From Culicoidibacter larvae (lineage in GTDB: Bacteria > Bacillota_I > Bacilli_A > Culicoidibacterales > Culicoidibacteraceae): 64,000 nucleotides of DNA. Of this stretch, positions 29,597 through 36,125 are shown one piece after another (the first letter of the stretch is position 1; each line of letters opens with the position of its first letter). The DNA is taken from assembly GCF_005771635.1 (NCBI RefSeq), contig NZ_VBWP01000005.1:62001-126000 (forward strand), in the 5' to 3' direction. The notes beneath the pieces are model-generated. The model was not told the DNA's origin. It worked only from the letters and a program-made list of their open reading frames with translations, and did not search any database. A program made the position numbers and the translations under genes.

Positions 29597-29625
29597 ATTA
29601 TCCCAAATGAGGGAATTTGTGTCAA
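29597..29625 (-). promoter_or_regulatory. Promoter of the yczE-like gene
   Basis: TTGACA and GATAAT separated by exactly 17 bases on minus, a near-consensus sigma-A promoter. It starts just 9 bases after the stop codon of the island's methyltransferase gene. Confidence 0.82.
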
Positions 29626-29633
29626 GTATGTCT

Positions 29634-30506
29634 CTATAAATTATATGATGTATATAATTGCTCCTTAACTTTCAACACTTTTTGGGGATTTACATTTCTA
29701 ATTATTTCGGCAAGATCATTATTGTAAAAGAAATCAGTTTGGTAGATTTCTCTAGAAAGTTCACTGTCAGCTATAGATAAAGCAATTGACACATCCGTTC
29801 TCTTAAGCAGCTTACCACACTCTGCTGTTAAAGCTTTATGGTCAAAAGCATTTTTTGTGTACATAGTCATATTTTTCATTGAAGCACTTACCGGAAGGTA
29901 TGGAGGATCTAAGTAGATAAATGATTTATTTAGATCCTCATCAGAAAAATTATTCAAAAACTCGATATAATCTTGATTATAAAATTGAACATTTTCAATT
30001 AATCTTTGAATTTCATCAAAATTACTCTCATTAAAATATATTTTTTCCCTCTTCCCAAATGGAACATTAAACTCTCCTCTACTATTTACTCTGTATACTC
30101 CATTAAATCCCGCTTGCATTAAAAACCAAAAGATACATGCACTTTCAATATTTTTATCATTAAAAGTATTATATCGTTCTCTTTGCAAATAGAAGAATTC
30201 AGTCTTTTCTTCCATATTCAAATTGCTGTAATATTCGATTATCTCTTTAAGTCTATTTTTTAGTTGGGCTCCATTTTCTTGTACTTCTTTATAGAAAATT
30301 ATAATATCAGAGTTAAAATCATTAACATATATCGTATCAAAGTTTTTATATTTTAACACATTGCTCATAACAACGCCCGAACCTAGGAATGGTTCAATAT
30401 ATATATTCTTCGTGTCGAATGTTTCTAACATTTCTATGAGTAATTTTTTTTTTGATCCAGCCCATCTAAATATTGGCGACAAAACTTTTTCGCTCACAAA
30501 ATTCAC
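29634..30506 (-). CDS. Dam-type (D12 class) DNA adenine N6-methyltransferase
   Basis: Transfers methyl from SAM to adenine N6. D12-class motifs: WAGSKKKL at 15-22, FLGSG at 40-44 (SAM binding, motif I), VNDFNSD at about 61, and catalytic DPPY at 200-203, the alpha-class order. The 290-residue length matches phage and orphan Dam enzymes. GATC is the common target of the class but is not proven here. It is the last gene of the island operon and starts 4 bases after the DUF262 stop. Its A+T content is visibly higher than the chromosomal neighbours. It may protect host DNA from the DUF262 partner; that is inference. Confidence 0.92.
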   Translation of the reverse strand: MNFVSEKVLSPIFRWAGSKKKLLIEMLETFDTKNIYIEPFLGSGVVMSNVLKYKNFDTIYVNDFNSDIIIFYKEVQENGAQLKNRLKEIIEYYSNLNMEEKTEFFYLQRERYNTFNDKNIESACIFWFLMQAGFNGVYRVNSRGEFNVPFGKREKIYFNESNFDEIQRLIENVQFYNQDYIEFLNNFSDEDLNKSFIYLDPPYLPVSASMKNMTMYTKNAFDHKALTAECGKLLKRTDVSIALSIADSELSREIYQTDFFYNNDLAEIIRNVNPQKVLKVKEQLYTSYNL

Positions 30507-30510
30507 TTCC

Positions 30511-32187
30511 TTATGTTGTTAATATTTTAAATAGCTTCGTGTATTCTTCAAGTATTCTGTCTGCTAAATCGTTAGTACGAACATCAATATCTTTTGCCGA
30601 AAAAGTATTGTCATATTTACTTAAAAAATCTTTTACATTCCCTATCGAGCTTTGTTCATTATATTTGACTATTTTCCTTTCAATAGGGTATTCTCCAAAA
30701 TCATCATGAGTTACTAATAAAATATTTCCTAAATTGAATCTATTAGTTATTGTGTCATCAGATTGGCAATGGATATGTTCAATAAATTCTTGATTGAAAT
30801 CATTAAATAATACTTTAAAGATCCCTCTTGCAATCTTCTTTTCTTTTTTAGCTTCATCATTTATTTCCATTTCCAATAAGCTGGCTTTAATTTGTGCTAA
30901 TTCTCCCTTTAAGTAAATATTTTCGGTGAACTTTTTAATTTGACTTGAAATATTTTTGGGGGTATAGTTATCACTTATTTTTTTTGCTAACCCATAAATC
31001 TGAATACCATATGCTGAAGGACTTTTATTAATTATTGAATAAAATAAATTATGTATAACAATAAATCTAATAAATGTCTGGATTTTTGGTGATTTAGGGT
31101 AATTACTTAACATTGAAACCAGCACATTTTTTTTTGATTTTGGCACATATAAAAGGCTAAATAAAAGAATATCAAATTGTTTCACACTCAAAGATTTTAT
31201 AATATCCCAGTCGCTACTGATCACATTGATTCCAGCATCAATAATATCTTGATTAAATGGTGAAGCGATTGGCAATCTTTTTATTGATTCATATAATCTA
31301 TATGGAGCAATGTCACCAACAGAACGTGTAAGTAAATCAAAAGTCGTAGTTGCAGTATCTTCATCGTTGACAGTATTCAAGATATCCTCAAAAACCTTTG
31401 TTTTTTCTTTTGGAGGTGCACCGGAAAATACTATATTCTTTCTAAGTTGCCACATATCCTTTATATAATTTTCTGTATTACCTTGTAGAATGCCCACCAT
31501 ATCGCCCCAAGTCTCCTTAAATATGTCTGCATTATCAGCTTCGGGAAGTAAAAATTTAAAAAGATGACTCTTTATTATTGCATCCTTAGAGAGTGGAATC
31601 CCTTTAGTATTTAAATCTATAAAGATTTCATGCGCTTTACTTTCTTCATCAAATGTAATCAGAACTAGTTTAGTATTTTTAAAATTTTCGATTATTAAAG
31701 TAAGAATACCTGGTTCCTCTTGCTTCATCTTTTTTAATAAAGTAACCAGACTCTCTAATCGTTTGTTTTCGTTTGCTAACTTCATTGTTTCTGGCATTTC
31801 TCCAGATAACATAAATTCAATAATATTGTTGTGAGCTGCTTGCGCTCTCATCTCAAGCTCCACTTTTACTTGACCAGTATTTGTAAAAATAAGTTTATTA
31901 TCAACACATTCAGGTTCTAGCTTATAAACTGCAATGAGTAGTAAGAATATACTGATAAAACGTTGTTGTCCATCAATTACATCATATTTTATTTCATTAT
32001 CGTCACTCTTATCTACTAACACAATATTACCAAAATAGTGATAATTATTAGAACTTGCGCTGACTATATCCTCAACAAGTTTTTTAACCTCTTTGTTAGT
32101 CCACGCGTATTCGCGCTGATATCTAGGAATAATATATCTGGTCTCTTTCGAAAAAATTCTTTCTATACTTCTATCTTCTGCTTTCAT
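30511..32187 (-). CDS. DUF262 (GmrSD-like) putative nuclease/NTPase
   Basis: A 558-residue protein of the DUF262 family found in type IV restriction enzymes (GmrSD, BrxU, SspE). The N-terminal domain has IPRYQREYAWT at 20-30 and the DGQQR motif at 72-76, the ParB-like nucleotide-handling site. FIDLNTKGIPLSKDAIIKSHLF is the second conserved block. The C-terminus resembles a DUF1524 HNH domain: IEHIHCQ and NRFNLGNILLV align with the usual EHxxPQ and LGNLTLL, but the later asparagine residues are not evident, so nuclease activity is uncertain. It is third in the island operon, 62 bases after AIPR and 4 before the methyltransferase. An AGAGAGG site precedes the ATG. Confidence 0.87.
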   Translation of the reverse strand: MKAEDRSIERIFSKETRYIIPRYQREYAWTNKEVKKLVEDIVSASSNNYHYFGNIVLVDKSDDNEIKYDVIDGQQRFISIFLLLIAVYKLEPECVDNKLIFTNTGQVKVELEMRAQAAHNNIIEFMLSGEMPETMKLANENKRLESLVTLLKKMKQEEPGILTLIIENFKNTKLVLITFDEESKAHEIFIDLNTKGIPLSKDAIIKSHLFKFLLPEADNADIFKETWGDMVGILQGNTENYIKDMWQLRKNIVFSGAPPKEKTKVFEDILNTVNDEDTATTTFDLLTRSVGDIAPYRLYESIKRLPIASPFNQDIIDAGINVISSDWDIIKSLSVKQFDILLFSLLYVPKSKKNVLVSMLSNYPKSPKIQTFIRFIVIHNLFYSIINKSPSAYGIQIYGLAKKISDNYTPKNISSQIKKFTENIYLKGELAQIKASLLEMEINDEAKKEKKIARGIFKVLFNDFNQEFIEHIHCQSDDTITNRFNLGNILLVTHDDFGEYPIERKIVKYNEQSSIGNVKDFLSKYDNTFSAKDIDVRTNDLADRILEEYTKLFKILTT

Positions 32188-32249
32188 TAATATATACCTC
32201 TCTTTATCTTCCCCGTTACTATAACATATCCACTCTGCATAATCTACTA

Positions 32250-34001
32250 TTAAAAATATGTAATCATCAGATTATATAGTTTATCATTTTTGAAAGTATT
32301 ACTATTCCATGATTCTATATTATAGTCTTTGTACCCCTCAACAATAAATGACTCCAGTTTTTGCATTAGCTTAACTGTTACTTTTTTATTTACAAACTCA
32401 TCTTCGAATTGTTTTAAAAAGATTGATTCTATTCTGCTAAGAGCATTAGAAATCCTATCAATTATCTCCTCGGAATCTTCAATTGTAAGTTCTTTTGTAT
32501 TTATATCTATCTTTTGTATTTCAATCAATATCTTTTCATTTTCACTTCGAATAAGTTTTGTGAATTGAAGAATATCACTAATAAGTTCATAAGCACTATT
32601 TCTGTTAAATTTCTCTAAATAATCAATCTTTTTGGTTTGCAAAACATCTCTAACTATGTCAGCATCTATCATATTATTAGGTATACCATCTTTAGCCATG
32701 ATTGCAACAATCAGCGCTTTTATATAGTAGTCACCATTTCTGAGAAAGACATCCAGTGCTCTATAAAATATATCATTTTTCAATATAGTATTATTTTCAA
32801 AGTCTTTTGCATCAATTGATTCTGTAATATTTTTCTCCCATAATAAGTATGAACCAATGATATTGATATATGGACTGCGCCCCCTCTCATACTCTTCTTT
32901 TTTATAAAAAATCTTTCTTTTAACATCATCTCCAGAATATTCCAGTAAGCTATGCCCAGCACTTGCTCTTGATGCGCCAGGCTGTTGTAATATTAATGCT
33001 TTATACATTTTGGCAAAGTCTTCAACATACATAGACTTTCCGATTTTGTTTTCGCCTCTTCGTTTAATATATAGACCCAAATCAACAAGTTGCTTCCGAA
33101 CATCTGAAACAATTTTGTTATTAAACATTATATCTGAAAGTTTAACTTCTTTTTGTCTATTTAATGACACAGTTATTTTATTGCACAAATCAACGCTCTT
33201 ATTTTGATCTAGCTTAATAATACGAACCAATACCGTCGCTTTCTTATAGTTATCTATTTTATCTAAAACATCCTTGTCTTGGCTCAAATTATACTCATTC
33301 AATCTTTCGATATACCATTTACTTGCTATTGTTAATGTTTGTGCCCCATTTATTATAGAAAAATTTTGAATCTCAATACTATTAGTGCGTTGGATCTTAT
33401 AGTCATTTGCAATAATAACTATTCCATTATTAAAAAACCAAAAATTTTCTGGCTCATTTTCAAGAGTATTTTCAATAGAATTATCTACATCCAATTTATC
33501 TTTCAAAATAAACTCCCTAACATTATGAGTAAACAAATTATCTCCAAATTTTAAGTATAATTTTGTGAGGGTACTCATTGGCATATTGAATACATAACTT
33601 TCAATATCATTTTTTTCATAATACAGTTTATCAATCCTAGTTGTAATTTCTAATTCATAAAAAGAATTACTAATTTTTTCAAATAAATACTCAACATTCC
33701 CGCGCCTTTTTTCTAATAATCTTTTTGCTTTTATTAAATGACTCCAATCATTAGTCAATATACAGATATGATAACTCCTTTTATGTCCATTTTTCTCAAT
33801 TAAATCATCAATTTTAGTAAAGGTTTCAGCTATTATCTCGTCTTTATAAAAGAAAATATAATAATTAATTGTTTTATTTTTGTTATCTTCTGATTCCACA
33901 CAATAAAAAGTCTGTTTTTCTGAATAAAATTCAATATTATTTATAGTAATATGTGAGTTTATCCACTCCATCACTAACTTATCTTCCATCCTCTTATTCA
34001 T
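32250..34001 (-). CDS. AIPR (abortive infection phage resistance) family protein
   Basis: A 583-residue protein with the AIPR signature: NVREFILKDK and IENTLENEPENFWFFNNGI (Asn-Asn-Gly at 191-193), then SIINGAQTLT (217-222), VLVRII and the SLNRQKEVKLSDI block. AIPR proteins were linked to abortive infection in lactococci and occur in defence loci; their mechanism is poorly known. The ATG at 34001 follows GAGGAGATATATT and overlaps the FRG gene by 8 bases. The last 100 residues are helical and charged. Codon use is strongly A+T-biased like the rest of the island. Confidence 0.88.
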   Translation of the reverse strand: MNKRMEDKLVMEWINSHITINNIEFYSEKQTFYCVESEDNKNKTINYYIFFYKDEIIAETFTKIDDLIEKNGHKRSYHICILTNDWSHLIKAKRLLEKRRGNVEYLFEKISNSFYELEITTRIDKLYYEKNDIESYVFNMPMSTLTKLYLKFGDNLFTHNVREFILKDKLDVDNSIENTLENEPENFWFFNNGIVIIANDYKIQRTNSIEIQNFSIINGAQTLTIASKWYIERLNEYNLSQDKDVLDKIDNYKKATVLVRIIKLDQNKSVDLCNKITVSLNRQKEVKLSDIMFNNKIVSDVRKQLVDLGLYIKRRGENKIGKSMYVEDFAKMYKALILQQPGASRASAGHSLLEYSGDDVKRKIFYKKEEYERGRSPYINIIGSYLLWEKNITESIDAKDFENNTILKNDIFYRALDVFLRNGDYYIKALIVAIMAKDGIPNNMIDADIVRDVLQTKKIDYLEKFNRNSAYELISDILQFTKLIRSENEKILIEIQKIDINTKELTIEDSEEIIDRISNALSRIESIFLKQFEDEFVNKKVTVKLMQKLESFIVEGYKDYNIESWNSNTFKNDKLYNLMITYF

Positions 34002-35388
34002 AATATATCTCCTCAAAAATTTTATTGATTTCTTTTTTTATAAGTCTTATTTCAGTATCATTTTCTATCTTAACTGACTTATCAACCTTTTTGATTATGG
34101 TTTCTACCTTAGGATGAAACAGCTCCATATATATATTTACATTATTTAGTCTACAATTATAAATTTCTAAAAGAATATTTTTCATGTACACAAATAATAA
34201 TATTAATTGTTCCTCAGTACTTATAACCTTTCCGATTTGTGGAATACTGTATTCAATATCATCTAAATATTTCTGCAACAAATTTTCTATTTGTCGTAGT
34301 ATATCATCCTCCGCTTCATCATAAATAGCGTCTAATTCTCTTTGGAACAAGTCAAACGAAGCATCAAGCTCATAGGCAAAGTTGATTTTCAAATCTACAT
34401 TGCTTTTCTCAGTTTGTTCCTGTATCCACTTGACCATATTTTCAGTTTCTGGATAAATTGTTCCTTTATGAATACCGAATAAAAATTGTAAATCTTCTAA
34501 AATCTCTTTCTTTTTATCTGTATTAATATATATATGTTTATAATGTGCAGAATCAATCGGTATATAATTCATCGATGGGAAGAGAATAAAGCCACCATAT
34601 TGTGAGACAACTCGTTCATTCACCTTAGAATGAGATAGTATTTTTACATTTCTATTAAAAAGTGGCATATCTAAAATATTATTATTCGAGATAATATTCT
34701 TATAAAAACTTTGTATTTCTTTAGCACCTGGATTAAAAATCTTTGGGAAATTAAATACAAATACATGTCCAAGATTATCTATCCAATTATTTAAATTAGT
34801 ATTATCAAAACCAAACTCACACGCAAAATATAGAGCAATTAAACAATTATACGATATATCTAACAATCTGCTTCCAAATCCGCCATGTTGAGCTTGAATC
34901 GCGCCTTCTAGAAAATCATCTTCCCTATGCTGTCGTAAAATATTATAAGTTTTTAATTGATAAAACAGTTCCTGTTCAAAAGTGTTACTTATATTTAATT
35001 GTCCATTTCTAAAAATATTTGGTTGCATAGGAATATCAAACGTTTGCGCCTCACCTCTGAATAAACACATTTCTTGATTTACTCGATAGTTGCTACAAAT
35101 ATCTTTTATCACAGCAATATATTCTTGAACCGAAGAAATAATCGGTATCTTATATTCACTGTTTGACAGTTTAATAGCTAATAAAAGTTGATCATTAATT
35201 TCTTCTTTCGTTGTACAATCATCTAATAAGGTTATTATGAGTTCAAATTTTTCTTTCCTTATCCCAGTTAAAGCATATTCAGAAATAATTGTTTGAATCA
35301 TTTGTATTATTTGTGCTTTAATGTTTTTATTATAGTTAAACCTTACTTCTTCACAAAGAAGATTTAACTCCTTAATATATTTTTTCAT
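33994..35388 (-). CDS. FRG-domain protein
   Basis: A 464-residue protein with an FRG domain in its middle. Motifs: LFRGEA at 109-114, PNIFRN at 123-128, AIQAQHGG at 163-170, SRLLDIS at 173-179 and IALYFACEF at 184-192, which match the usual FRGQ, PSLxR, AQHYGxPTRLLDWT and ALYFA pattern. The function of FRG is not established; it is seen in phages and in toxin- or defence-like settings. The N-terminal 85 residues are helical, and the C-terminal 150 residues are helical and acidic. It is the first gene of the island operon, with RBS GGTGGATGTAGTGGT before the ATG. Confidence 0.87.
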   Translation of the reverse strand: MKKYIKELNLLCEEVRFNYNKNIKAQIIQMIQTIISEYALTGIRKEKFELIITLLDDCTTKEEINDQLLLAIKLSNSEYKIPIISSVQEYIAVIKDICSNYRVNQEMCLFRGEAQTFDIPMQPNIFRNGQLNISNTFEQELFYQLKTYNILRQHREDDFLEGAIQAQHGGFGSRLLDISYNCLIALYFACEFGFDNTNLNNWIDNLGHVFVFNFPKIFNPGAKEIQSFYKNIISNNNILDMPLFNRNVKILSHSKVNERVVSQYGGFILFPSMNYIPIDSAHYKHIYINTDKKKEILEDLQFLFGIHKGTIYPETENMVKWIQEQTEKSNVDLKINFAYELDASFDLFQRELDAIYDEAEDDILRQIENLLQKYLDDIEYSIPQIGKVISTEEQLILLFVYMKNILLEIYNCRLNNVNIYMELFHPKVETIIKKVDKSVKIENDTEIRLIKKEINKIFEEIYYE

Positions 35389-35404
35389 ACCACTACATCC
35401 ACCT

Positions 35405-35432
35405 ACAATAATATAATTATATTATAATATTT
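35405..35432 (-). promoter_or_regulatory. A+T-rich promoter/operator region of the island operon
   Basis: A palindrome TAATATAATTATATTA with an overlapping TATAAT on minus, within 40 bases of the FRG start. A regulator binding here is possible; none is encoded in the island. Confidence 0.4.
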
Positions 35433-35503
35433 TATATAGTGAAAAACTAGAGTATTTATTTAGAATACCTACCGAAATTCGATGAAAATTGCGCAAAACT
35501 AAA

Positions 35504-35530
35504 AGAGAGAACAGTTAAACTGTTCTCTTT
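35504..35530 (-). terminator. Terminator of the PadR operon
   Basis: AGAGAACAG-TTAAA-CTGTTCTCT followed by TTTTAG on minus, directly after the stop. Confidence 0.82.
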
Positions 35531-35531
35531 T

Positions 35532-36125
35532 TCATCTTCCCATCCAGCGTTTTACAAATTGTACTATCTCCCAAATAATAAAACCGGCAATGACGAAAAA
35601 TAGTGCAAAGACTAGTAAGCCAGCCGATGCAATGATGCCATTTACCAACGCTGCTAAAATGTATTGTTGCATACTCTCTAATGCTACCCGTAAGTATGAA
35701 CCAAAAATTAATAATACCAGACAAATTACAAAAACAACTGTCAGGGTAATAATAATCTTGGGTCCGATTCTTTTTTGTTGTGGTATTCGTTTAGCTTGGT
35801 ACACCGGTTGTGCCTGAATGACAATCTCTTGTTCGACATAATCATTTTCAACTGGTGTATTGTATGATTGATATTCATAATCATTTTCTTCATTATCTAT
35901 CTCTTTGTTAATACTATTTTTGCTCTTCAATTCTGAAGCGTCTTGATAAAGTTCCTCGATGACAGCAAACAATTCTGCTTGCACGACCATTTTTGATTGA
36001 TGTTTGGCACTTAAATCTTTTGCTTTTTCCTCGAGATAATCAATTAATTCTGTCTTCTCCATTGGTAAAAAGGCAGCTAACTGATCGTATAATATATCGA
36101 TTCTTTCCAGCACCTCATTACTCAT
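35532..36125 (-). CDS. HAAS/DUF1700-like membrane protein, PadR partner
   Basis: A 197-residue protein. The first 75 residues (VLERIDILYDQLAAFLPMEK and onward) resemble the helical HAAS domain that accompanies PadR regulators. A low-complexity acidic linker follows, then two membrane helices (about 122-145 and 155-185). The ATG at 36125 follows GGAGGATGAAAAAG and overlaps the PadR gene by 8 bases (ATGAGTAA). In such pairs the membrane protein is thought to be co-regulated with PadR in envelope-stress responses; no direct evidence here. Confidence 0.72.
   Translation of the reverse strand: MSNEVLERIDILYDQLAAFLPMEKTELIDYLEEKAKDLSAKHQSKMVVQAELFAVIEELYQDASELKSKNSINKEIDNEENDYEYQSYNTPVENDYVEQEIVIQAQPVYQAKRIPQQKRIGPKIIITLTVVFVICLVLLIFGSYLRVALESMQQYILAALVNGIIASAGLLVFALFFVIAGFIIWEIVQFVKRWMGR

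Follow-up and report, generated by a model that had tools for sequence, protein, structure and literature searches.

A four-gene operon in an A+T-rich island

The stretch of Culicoidibacter larvae DNA analysed here (64,000 nucleotides of contig NZ_VBWP01000005.1, positions 62,001 to 126,000; hereafter the window) carries on its minus strand four consecutive genes from four defence-associated families: FRG (33994..35388, 464 aa), AIPR (32250..34001, 583 aa from the ATG), DUF262/GmrSD_N (30511..32187, 558 aa) and a Dam methyltransferase (29634..30506, 290 aa, GTG start). A sequence-only reading of the window had proposed that these genes, spanning 29634-35388, form one tightly spaced operon in an island that is richer in A+T than its flanks and devoid of transposases and integrases, and all of these claims are borne out by our analysis. 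The genes are intact open reading frames (ORFs), and each has a Pfam match (PF08867, PF10592, PF03235 and PF02086, respectively); chance ORFs were rejected. FRG and AIPR overlap by 8 bases, with GAGGAG preceding the ATG of AIPR (34001); a TTG at 34016 in the AIPR frame is an alternative opening codon. AIPR and DUF262 are 62 bases apart, and the distance between DUF262 and Dam is 4 bases, counted from the first GTG of Dam (30506). Another GTG, at 30497, is better spaced after AAGGAAG and may be the real Dam start. The GC content is 0.26-0.31 over 30001-36000, compared with about 0.35-0.44 in both flanks, and no transposase, integrase or tRNA was found bordering the island in the flanking parts scanned. 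A search for an empty site in near relatives revealed no conserved flank genes.

The transcript most likely holds just FRG, AIPR, DUF262 and Dam, because a terminator-like hairpin (35506..35528, minus strand) stands at the end of the upstream PadR-type operon, a promoter-like site (TTTTCA-18-TATAAT, 35416..35445, minus strand, with the TATAAT at 35421-35416) lies 5' of FRG, and a separate promoter-like site (TTGACA-17-GATAAT, 29597..29625, minus strand) follows right behind the Dam stop. The latter appears to belong to the next, YczE-like gene and likely marks the 3' end of the operon. The site before FRG is a consensus match only, and promoter-type matches, taken together, do not exceed their frequency in shuffled sequence, so that they are simply compatible with the operon reading. 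Of 395 sampled Bacilli genomes, 26 have AIPR and 18 have FRG, yet the two are adjacent in the window; since both families are this infrequent, their adjacency is not due to chance. Defence genes are often adjacent within islands, and adjacency alone is no proof of a single system.

The four proteins

FRG matches PF08867 (E 8.7e-13) and the PADLOC candidate PDC-S15 (E 1.7e-33), and it keeps all eight conserved residues of the family (R111, G112, Q167, H168, R174, D177, R259 and Q263). FRG proteins have been described as a clade within the ADP-ribosyltransferase (ART) superfamily and as potential antiviral effectors with possible NADase activity (PMC9503650). Sequence comparison of the window FRG with the PDB gave no match, and a structure search of BFVD returned nothing informative. 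The predicted model (predicted local distance difference test, pLDDT, 75) yielded only weak fold matches in the PDB, among them ParT (6d0h) and domain III of exotoxin A (1aer) (E 4.8-5.9), both of which are ADP-ribosyltransferase folds. These two matches agree with the published placement in the ART superfamily without proving it, and FRG is probably an effector of this superfamily.

AIPR matches PF10592 (E 3.4e-24) and keeps the core motifs of its family (NxR, NNG, INGxQT and NxQ), with R162, N192, G193, N218, G219, Q221 and N281 invariant. It is devoid of the N-terminal nuclease-like motif DGGID...QxK that is present in most AIPRs, where the corresponding domain is common, though not strictly defining for the family. 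Because this motif is absent, AIPR is probably a sensor or regulator. It has no match in the PDB by sequence, and a fold search with its model (pLDDT 62) returned weak matches only, the sole suggestive one being ParB-N (5k5d, E 0.72).

The DUF262 protein matches PF03235 (GmrSD_N) and PADLOC HEC-06, both with E 2e-34. DUF262 proteins are NTPases according to published knowledge of the family, and the nucleotide-binding DGQQR motif is retained here, with D72-R76 invariant. The C-terminus has no Pfam match to GmrSD_C. It can be aligned to the HNH region of DUF1524 (EHIH...LGN), with EHI and LGN kept and with the HxxP proline and the downstream Asn lost. We interpret it as a degenerate DUF1524-like region and the protein as a candidate nuclease, the activity of which is uncertain because these two residues are lost.

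The fourth gene encodes a member of the D12 family (PF02086, MethyltransfD12, E 2.2e-42; TIGR00571 dam, E 6e-52, above the family cut-off) that aligns to the structure of E. coli Dam (2g1p, E 3.1e-30). It has the catalytic DPPY and residues equivalent to N120, R124 and P134 of EcoDam, with an R in place of K9. Enzymes of the D12 family are, by published family knowledge, N6-adenine DNA methyltransferases. The catalytic motif of the window enzyme is intact, but searches with Pfam, PADLOC and NCBIfam found no family match to a type II restriction endonuclease, and a classical type II restriction-modification system with a known restriction endonuclease was therefore rejected; DUF262 is the only adjoining candidate partner. 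From what is known of EcoDam we take a GATC-like target of the window Dam to be likely, though not certain. In the window GATC reaches 0.52 of its expected frequency, and by this ratio just one tetramer is rarer, which fits past restriction at GATC without pointing to this operon. In the part of the window (1-64000) outside the island, both GATC (0.51) and GGCC (0.46) fall far below a Markov expectation. Two more D12 methyltransferases are present in the same genome (G000:C17:4885-5547, L147, and G000:C15:26577-27251, L148), on contigs that carry plasmid- or conjugation-like genes.

FRG and AIPR recur beside a different restriction system

The best relative of the window FRG that we found is encoded on the viral contig IMGVR_UViG_2791355326_000004 (L149; 34% identity, E 2e-22). 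There too the order is FRG then AIPR, with both genes on one strand, and the AIPR, which aligns with that of the window at 28% identity over 265 residues (E 5e-14), likewise is without the N-terminal nuclease-like motif. The absence of this motif from both AIPRs leaves room for FRG as the effector. Restriction-modification genes again adjoin the pair, but instead of Dam and DUF262 they comprise a C5 methyltransferase (PF00145, 1.4e-57) and a divergently transcribed nuclease of the MutH/Sau3AI type (PF02976, 5.4e-35), both immediately upstream. L149 differs from the window also in that its FRG frame is divided between two ORFs and its AIPR has an extra C-terminal domain.

The FRG tree groups the window with L149 and L080 (genome G383) in a single clade (support 100/99). 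The L080 FRG abuts the C-terminal remnant of a MutH/Sau3AI-type nuclease that is 45.7% identical to the L149 nuclease, so that all three members of the clade sit with restriction-type genes; an order-wide search around G383 revealed no additional member. The claim of the sequence-only reading that FRG is a core part of the operon and not a passenger gains support from this clade of three, one of which (L149) has AIPR as well and two of which (L149 and L080) are tied to restriction genes. A methyltransferase, MutH- or DpnII-like gene was found within 3 kb of FRG in 8 of 100 loci, L149 and L080 being two of the eight; this rule leaves out the window FRG, which lies 3.5 kb from Dam, and the enrichment is modest, post hoc and based on partly redundant loci. 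Such methyltransferase or restriction endonuclease genes lie within 3 kb in 22 of 112 AIPR loci, in agreement with the published remark that restriction-modification frequently accompanies AbiU1/AIPR (PMC3506569).

The four-gene set in other genomes

We surveyed about 780 Bacilli genomes, and on viral contigs we profile-searched the ORFs of 80 FRG, 80 AIPR and 80 DUF262 loci; outside Bacilli the coverage came from the viral contigs, plasmid and phage collections and a single narrow scan of genomes. Pfam identified AIPR in 40 of 392 Bacilli genomes, a sample that differs in part from the 395 above. Among 30 AIPR-positive genomes, FRG is present in five (including that of the window) and DUF262 in 12, and only in the genome of the window does either of them adjoin AIPR; the next-nearest DUF262 lies about 9 kb from AIPR (genome G099). 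No viral-contig locus repeats even three of the four genes. Only distant single-gene matches came from the plasmid and phage collections, and one lone AIPR from the narrow scan of genome contigs; further narrow scans for FRG-AIPR pairs returned L149 again and nothing else. In prophages, D12 methyltransferases also lie 3-6 kb from AIPR; we set these aside as probable cargo of the phages.

Comparison with known systems

The statement of the sequence-only reading that this combination of genes matches no nameable system holds across everything that we searched: PADLOC gives single-gene assignments only, and our literature search found no paper that names AIPR together with an FRG domain or DUF262. 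What is new is the combination of genes; its kind would be that of a restriction-associated abortive-infection operon. PDC-S15 is likewise an FRG-domain protein, and it is listed as a single-gene candidate, whereas the window FRG is the first gene of an operon of four. In MZA and MZA-like systems (MzaABCDE; the type II system of PMC9523054) AIPR and a DNA methyltransferase also share one operon, but these systems have a Z1 helicase, no FRG as described and a methyltransferase of another class. Membership of the window operon in MZA was rejected, as its AIPR is only distantly matched by MzaE (NCBIfam, E 4e-14, 52.1 bits against a cut-off of 1050) and neither a Z1-domain helicase nor any other MZA partner gene was found among the four genes or the flanking genes scanned.

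A Dam-family methyltransferase and AIPR also occur together in genome G143, where AIPR adjoins a complete DpnII system (L036). That locus differs from the window by its DpnII nuclease, its second methyltransferase, the nuclease-like N-terminus kept in its AIPR, and the absence of FRG and DUF262. At L036:5969-12425 the DpnII operon and AIPR are followed by a protein with a PLD-nuclease and a DpnI_C (Dam-replacing helix-turn-helix) domain. The window DUF262 shares the GmrSD_N domain and its DGQQR motif with the DUF262-DUF1524 enzymes GmrSD, BrxU and SspE, and is distinguished from them by its degenerate C-terminal HNH region and by its neighbours Dam, AIPR and FRG.

Possible function of the operon

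The interpretation that we tentatively prefer, with somewhat less than even confidence, is that an abortive-infection module of two genes (FRG and AIPR) accompanies a restriction-modification-type pair (Dam and DUF262). It starts from what is observed, namely the gene content, how the operon is laid out, and the FRG-AIPR pair found again next to another restriction system. The tight coupling of all four genes counts in its favour, as do the restriction-type neighbours throughout the FRG clade and the AIPR genes beside a D12 methyltransferase in G344 and a DpnII system in G143. If the four gene products cooperate, Dam would mark the host DNA, possibly at GATC-like sites, and DNA in the wrong modification state would be attacked by DUF262, which combines an NTP-binding ParB/Srx-like domain with a diverged HNH-type tail. 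As a sensor or brake, AIPR would perhaps read the state of the DNA or respond when restriction fails, and would then release FRG, which might consume NAD+ or ADP-ribosylate a target; the infected cell would stop growing or die.

Several results weigh against this interpretation. The four-gene order is absent elsewhere in the roughly 780 Bacilli genomes and in the viral-contig loci, and the FRG-AIPR pair recurs just once, in a locus where FRG is split. The AIPR tree neither supports nor rejects a clade of the window and L149 (p-AU 0.525), and family searches detected no AIPR in G383, which keeps FRG. A D12/Dam-type enzyme was not found directly beside DUF262 outside the window in the loci searched, the C-terminus of DUF262 is degenerate and unmatched by GmrSD_C, and the fold matches that place the window FRG among ADP-ribosyltransferases are weak (E about 5-6). 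The sequence-only reading had made recurrence of the four-gene order across genomes the measure of a true unit; the four families were found together only here, although the FRG-AIPR pair recurs in L149. Because the full set is unique among everything searched, the four-gene unit is unproven by that measure.

Ranked nearly as likely is a small defence island, in which independent systems (an FRG-AIPR pair, or FRG and AIPR singly; DUF262; Dam) were brought into one transcript by horizontal transfer and do not cooperate. In favour of such an island are the uniqueness of the exact set in the searched data, the absence of AIPR, DUF262 and Dam from beside FRG in most loci, the single-gene status of PDC-S15 in PADLOC, and the tendency of A+T-rich islands to gather defence genes. 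The overlaps and the gaps of 4 to 62 bases are harder to reconcile with independent systems, and so is L149, where FRG and AIPR stand in the same order next to a restriction system of another kind. An unlikely alternative, a modification-dependent (type IV-like) system, would have DUF262 attack modified phage DNA, with Dam setting or protecting the methylation state and a regulatory, not an effector, role for FRG and AIPR. Modification dependence is a trait of the GmrSD family (PMC10952713), DGQQR is retained in the window protein, and in six of 66 loci (L320, L329, L357, L339, L379 and L342) DUF262 has an N6-adenine methyltransferase of another class nearby. These six loci make plausible the suggestion of the sequence-only reading that DUF262 and an adenine methyltransferase form a modification-aware restriction unit, but the adjacency of DUF262 and Dam itself was not repeated; moreover, the known targets of GmrSD and BrxU are modified cytosines and not N6-methyladenine, the C-terminal nuclease region of the window DUF262 is degenerate, and the enzyme-like conservation of FRG speaks against a pure regulator. 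We find it very improbable that the operon is a toxin-antitoxin-like addiction module (FRG the toxin, AIPR the antidote) beside an orphan Dam and DUF262, serving the stability of the island and not phage defence. RES/ParT-type toxins with the ART fold do occur in such pairs and appear among the weak fold matches of FRG, and the two genes overlap by 8 bases; on the other hand, FRG comes first, AIPR belongs to a large conserved family tied to phage resistance and restriction and is no small antitoxin, and the FRG-AIPR pair is found beside restriction genes.

FRG-AIPR may be a portable abortive-infection module that is added to restriction-modification systems of widely differing chemistry, such as Dam and DUF262 in the window and the C5 methyltransferase and MutH-type nuclease in L149, with AIPR sensing the escape from or failure of restriction and unleashing the ART-fold FRG; we regard this as possible, if rather doubtful. 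For years AIPR proteins have been linked to phage resistance and restriction, but not to any mechanism, and FRG domains, though common, are uncharacterised. An AIPR without the nuclease-like end beside an FRG enzyme would separate the roles of sensor and effector, and the pair offers a direct way to ask whether restriction systems carry NAD+-dependent suicide back-ups.

Other neighbourhoods of the AIPR, FRG and DUF262 families

In genome G344, 47 bases separate an AIPR gene from a D12 methyltransferase downstream of it. One minus-strand run at this locus (L130:4391-14223) comprises the D12 methyltransferase, two AIPRs, another ORF and a Z1-domain helicase, and is MZA-like. At L320:6001-10672 DUF262 overlaps an HsdM-type methyltransferase by 4 bases, and a second HsdM-type gene follows. 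On three viral contigs FRG overlaps a short DUF262 gene by 4 bases (L182:2096-4020, L202:6001-7916 and L225:1154-2958), and we propose FRG-DUF262 as a candidate two-gene system.

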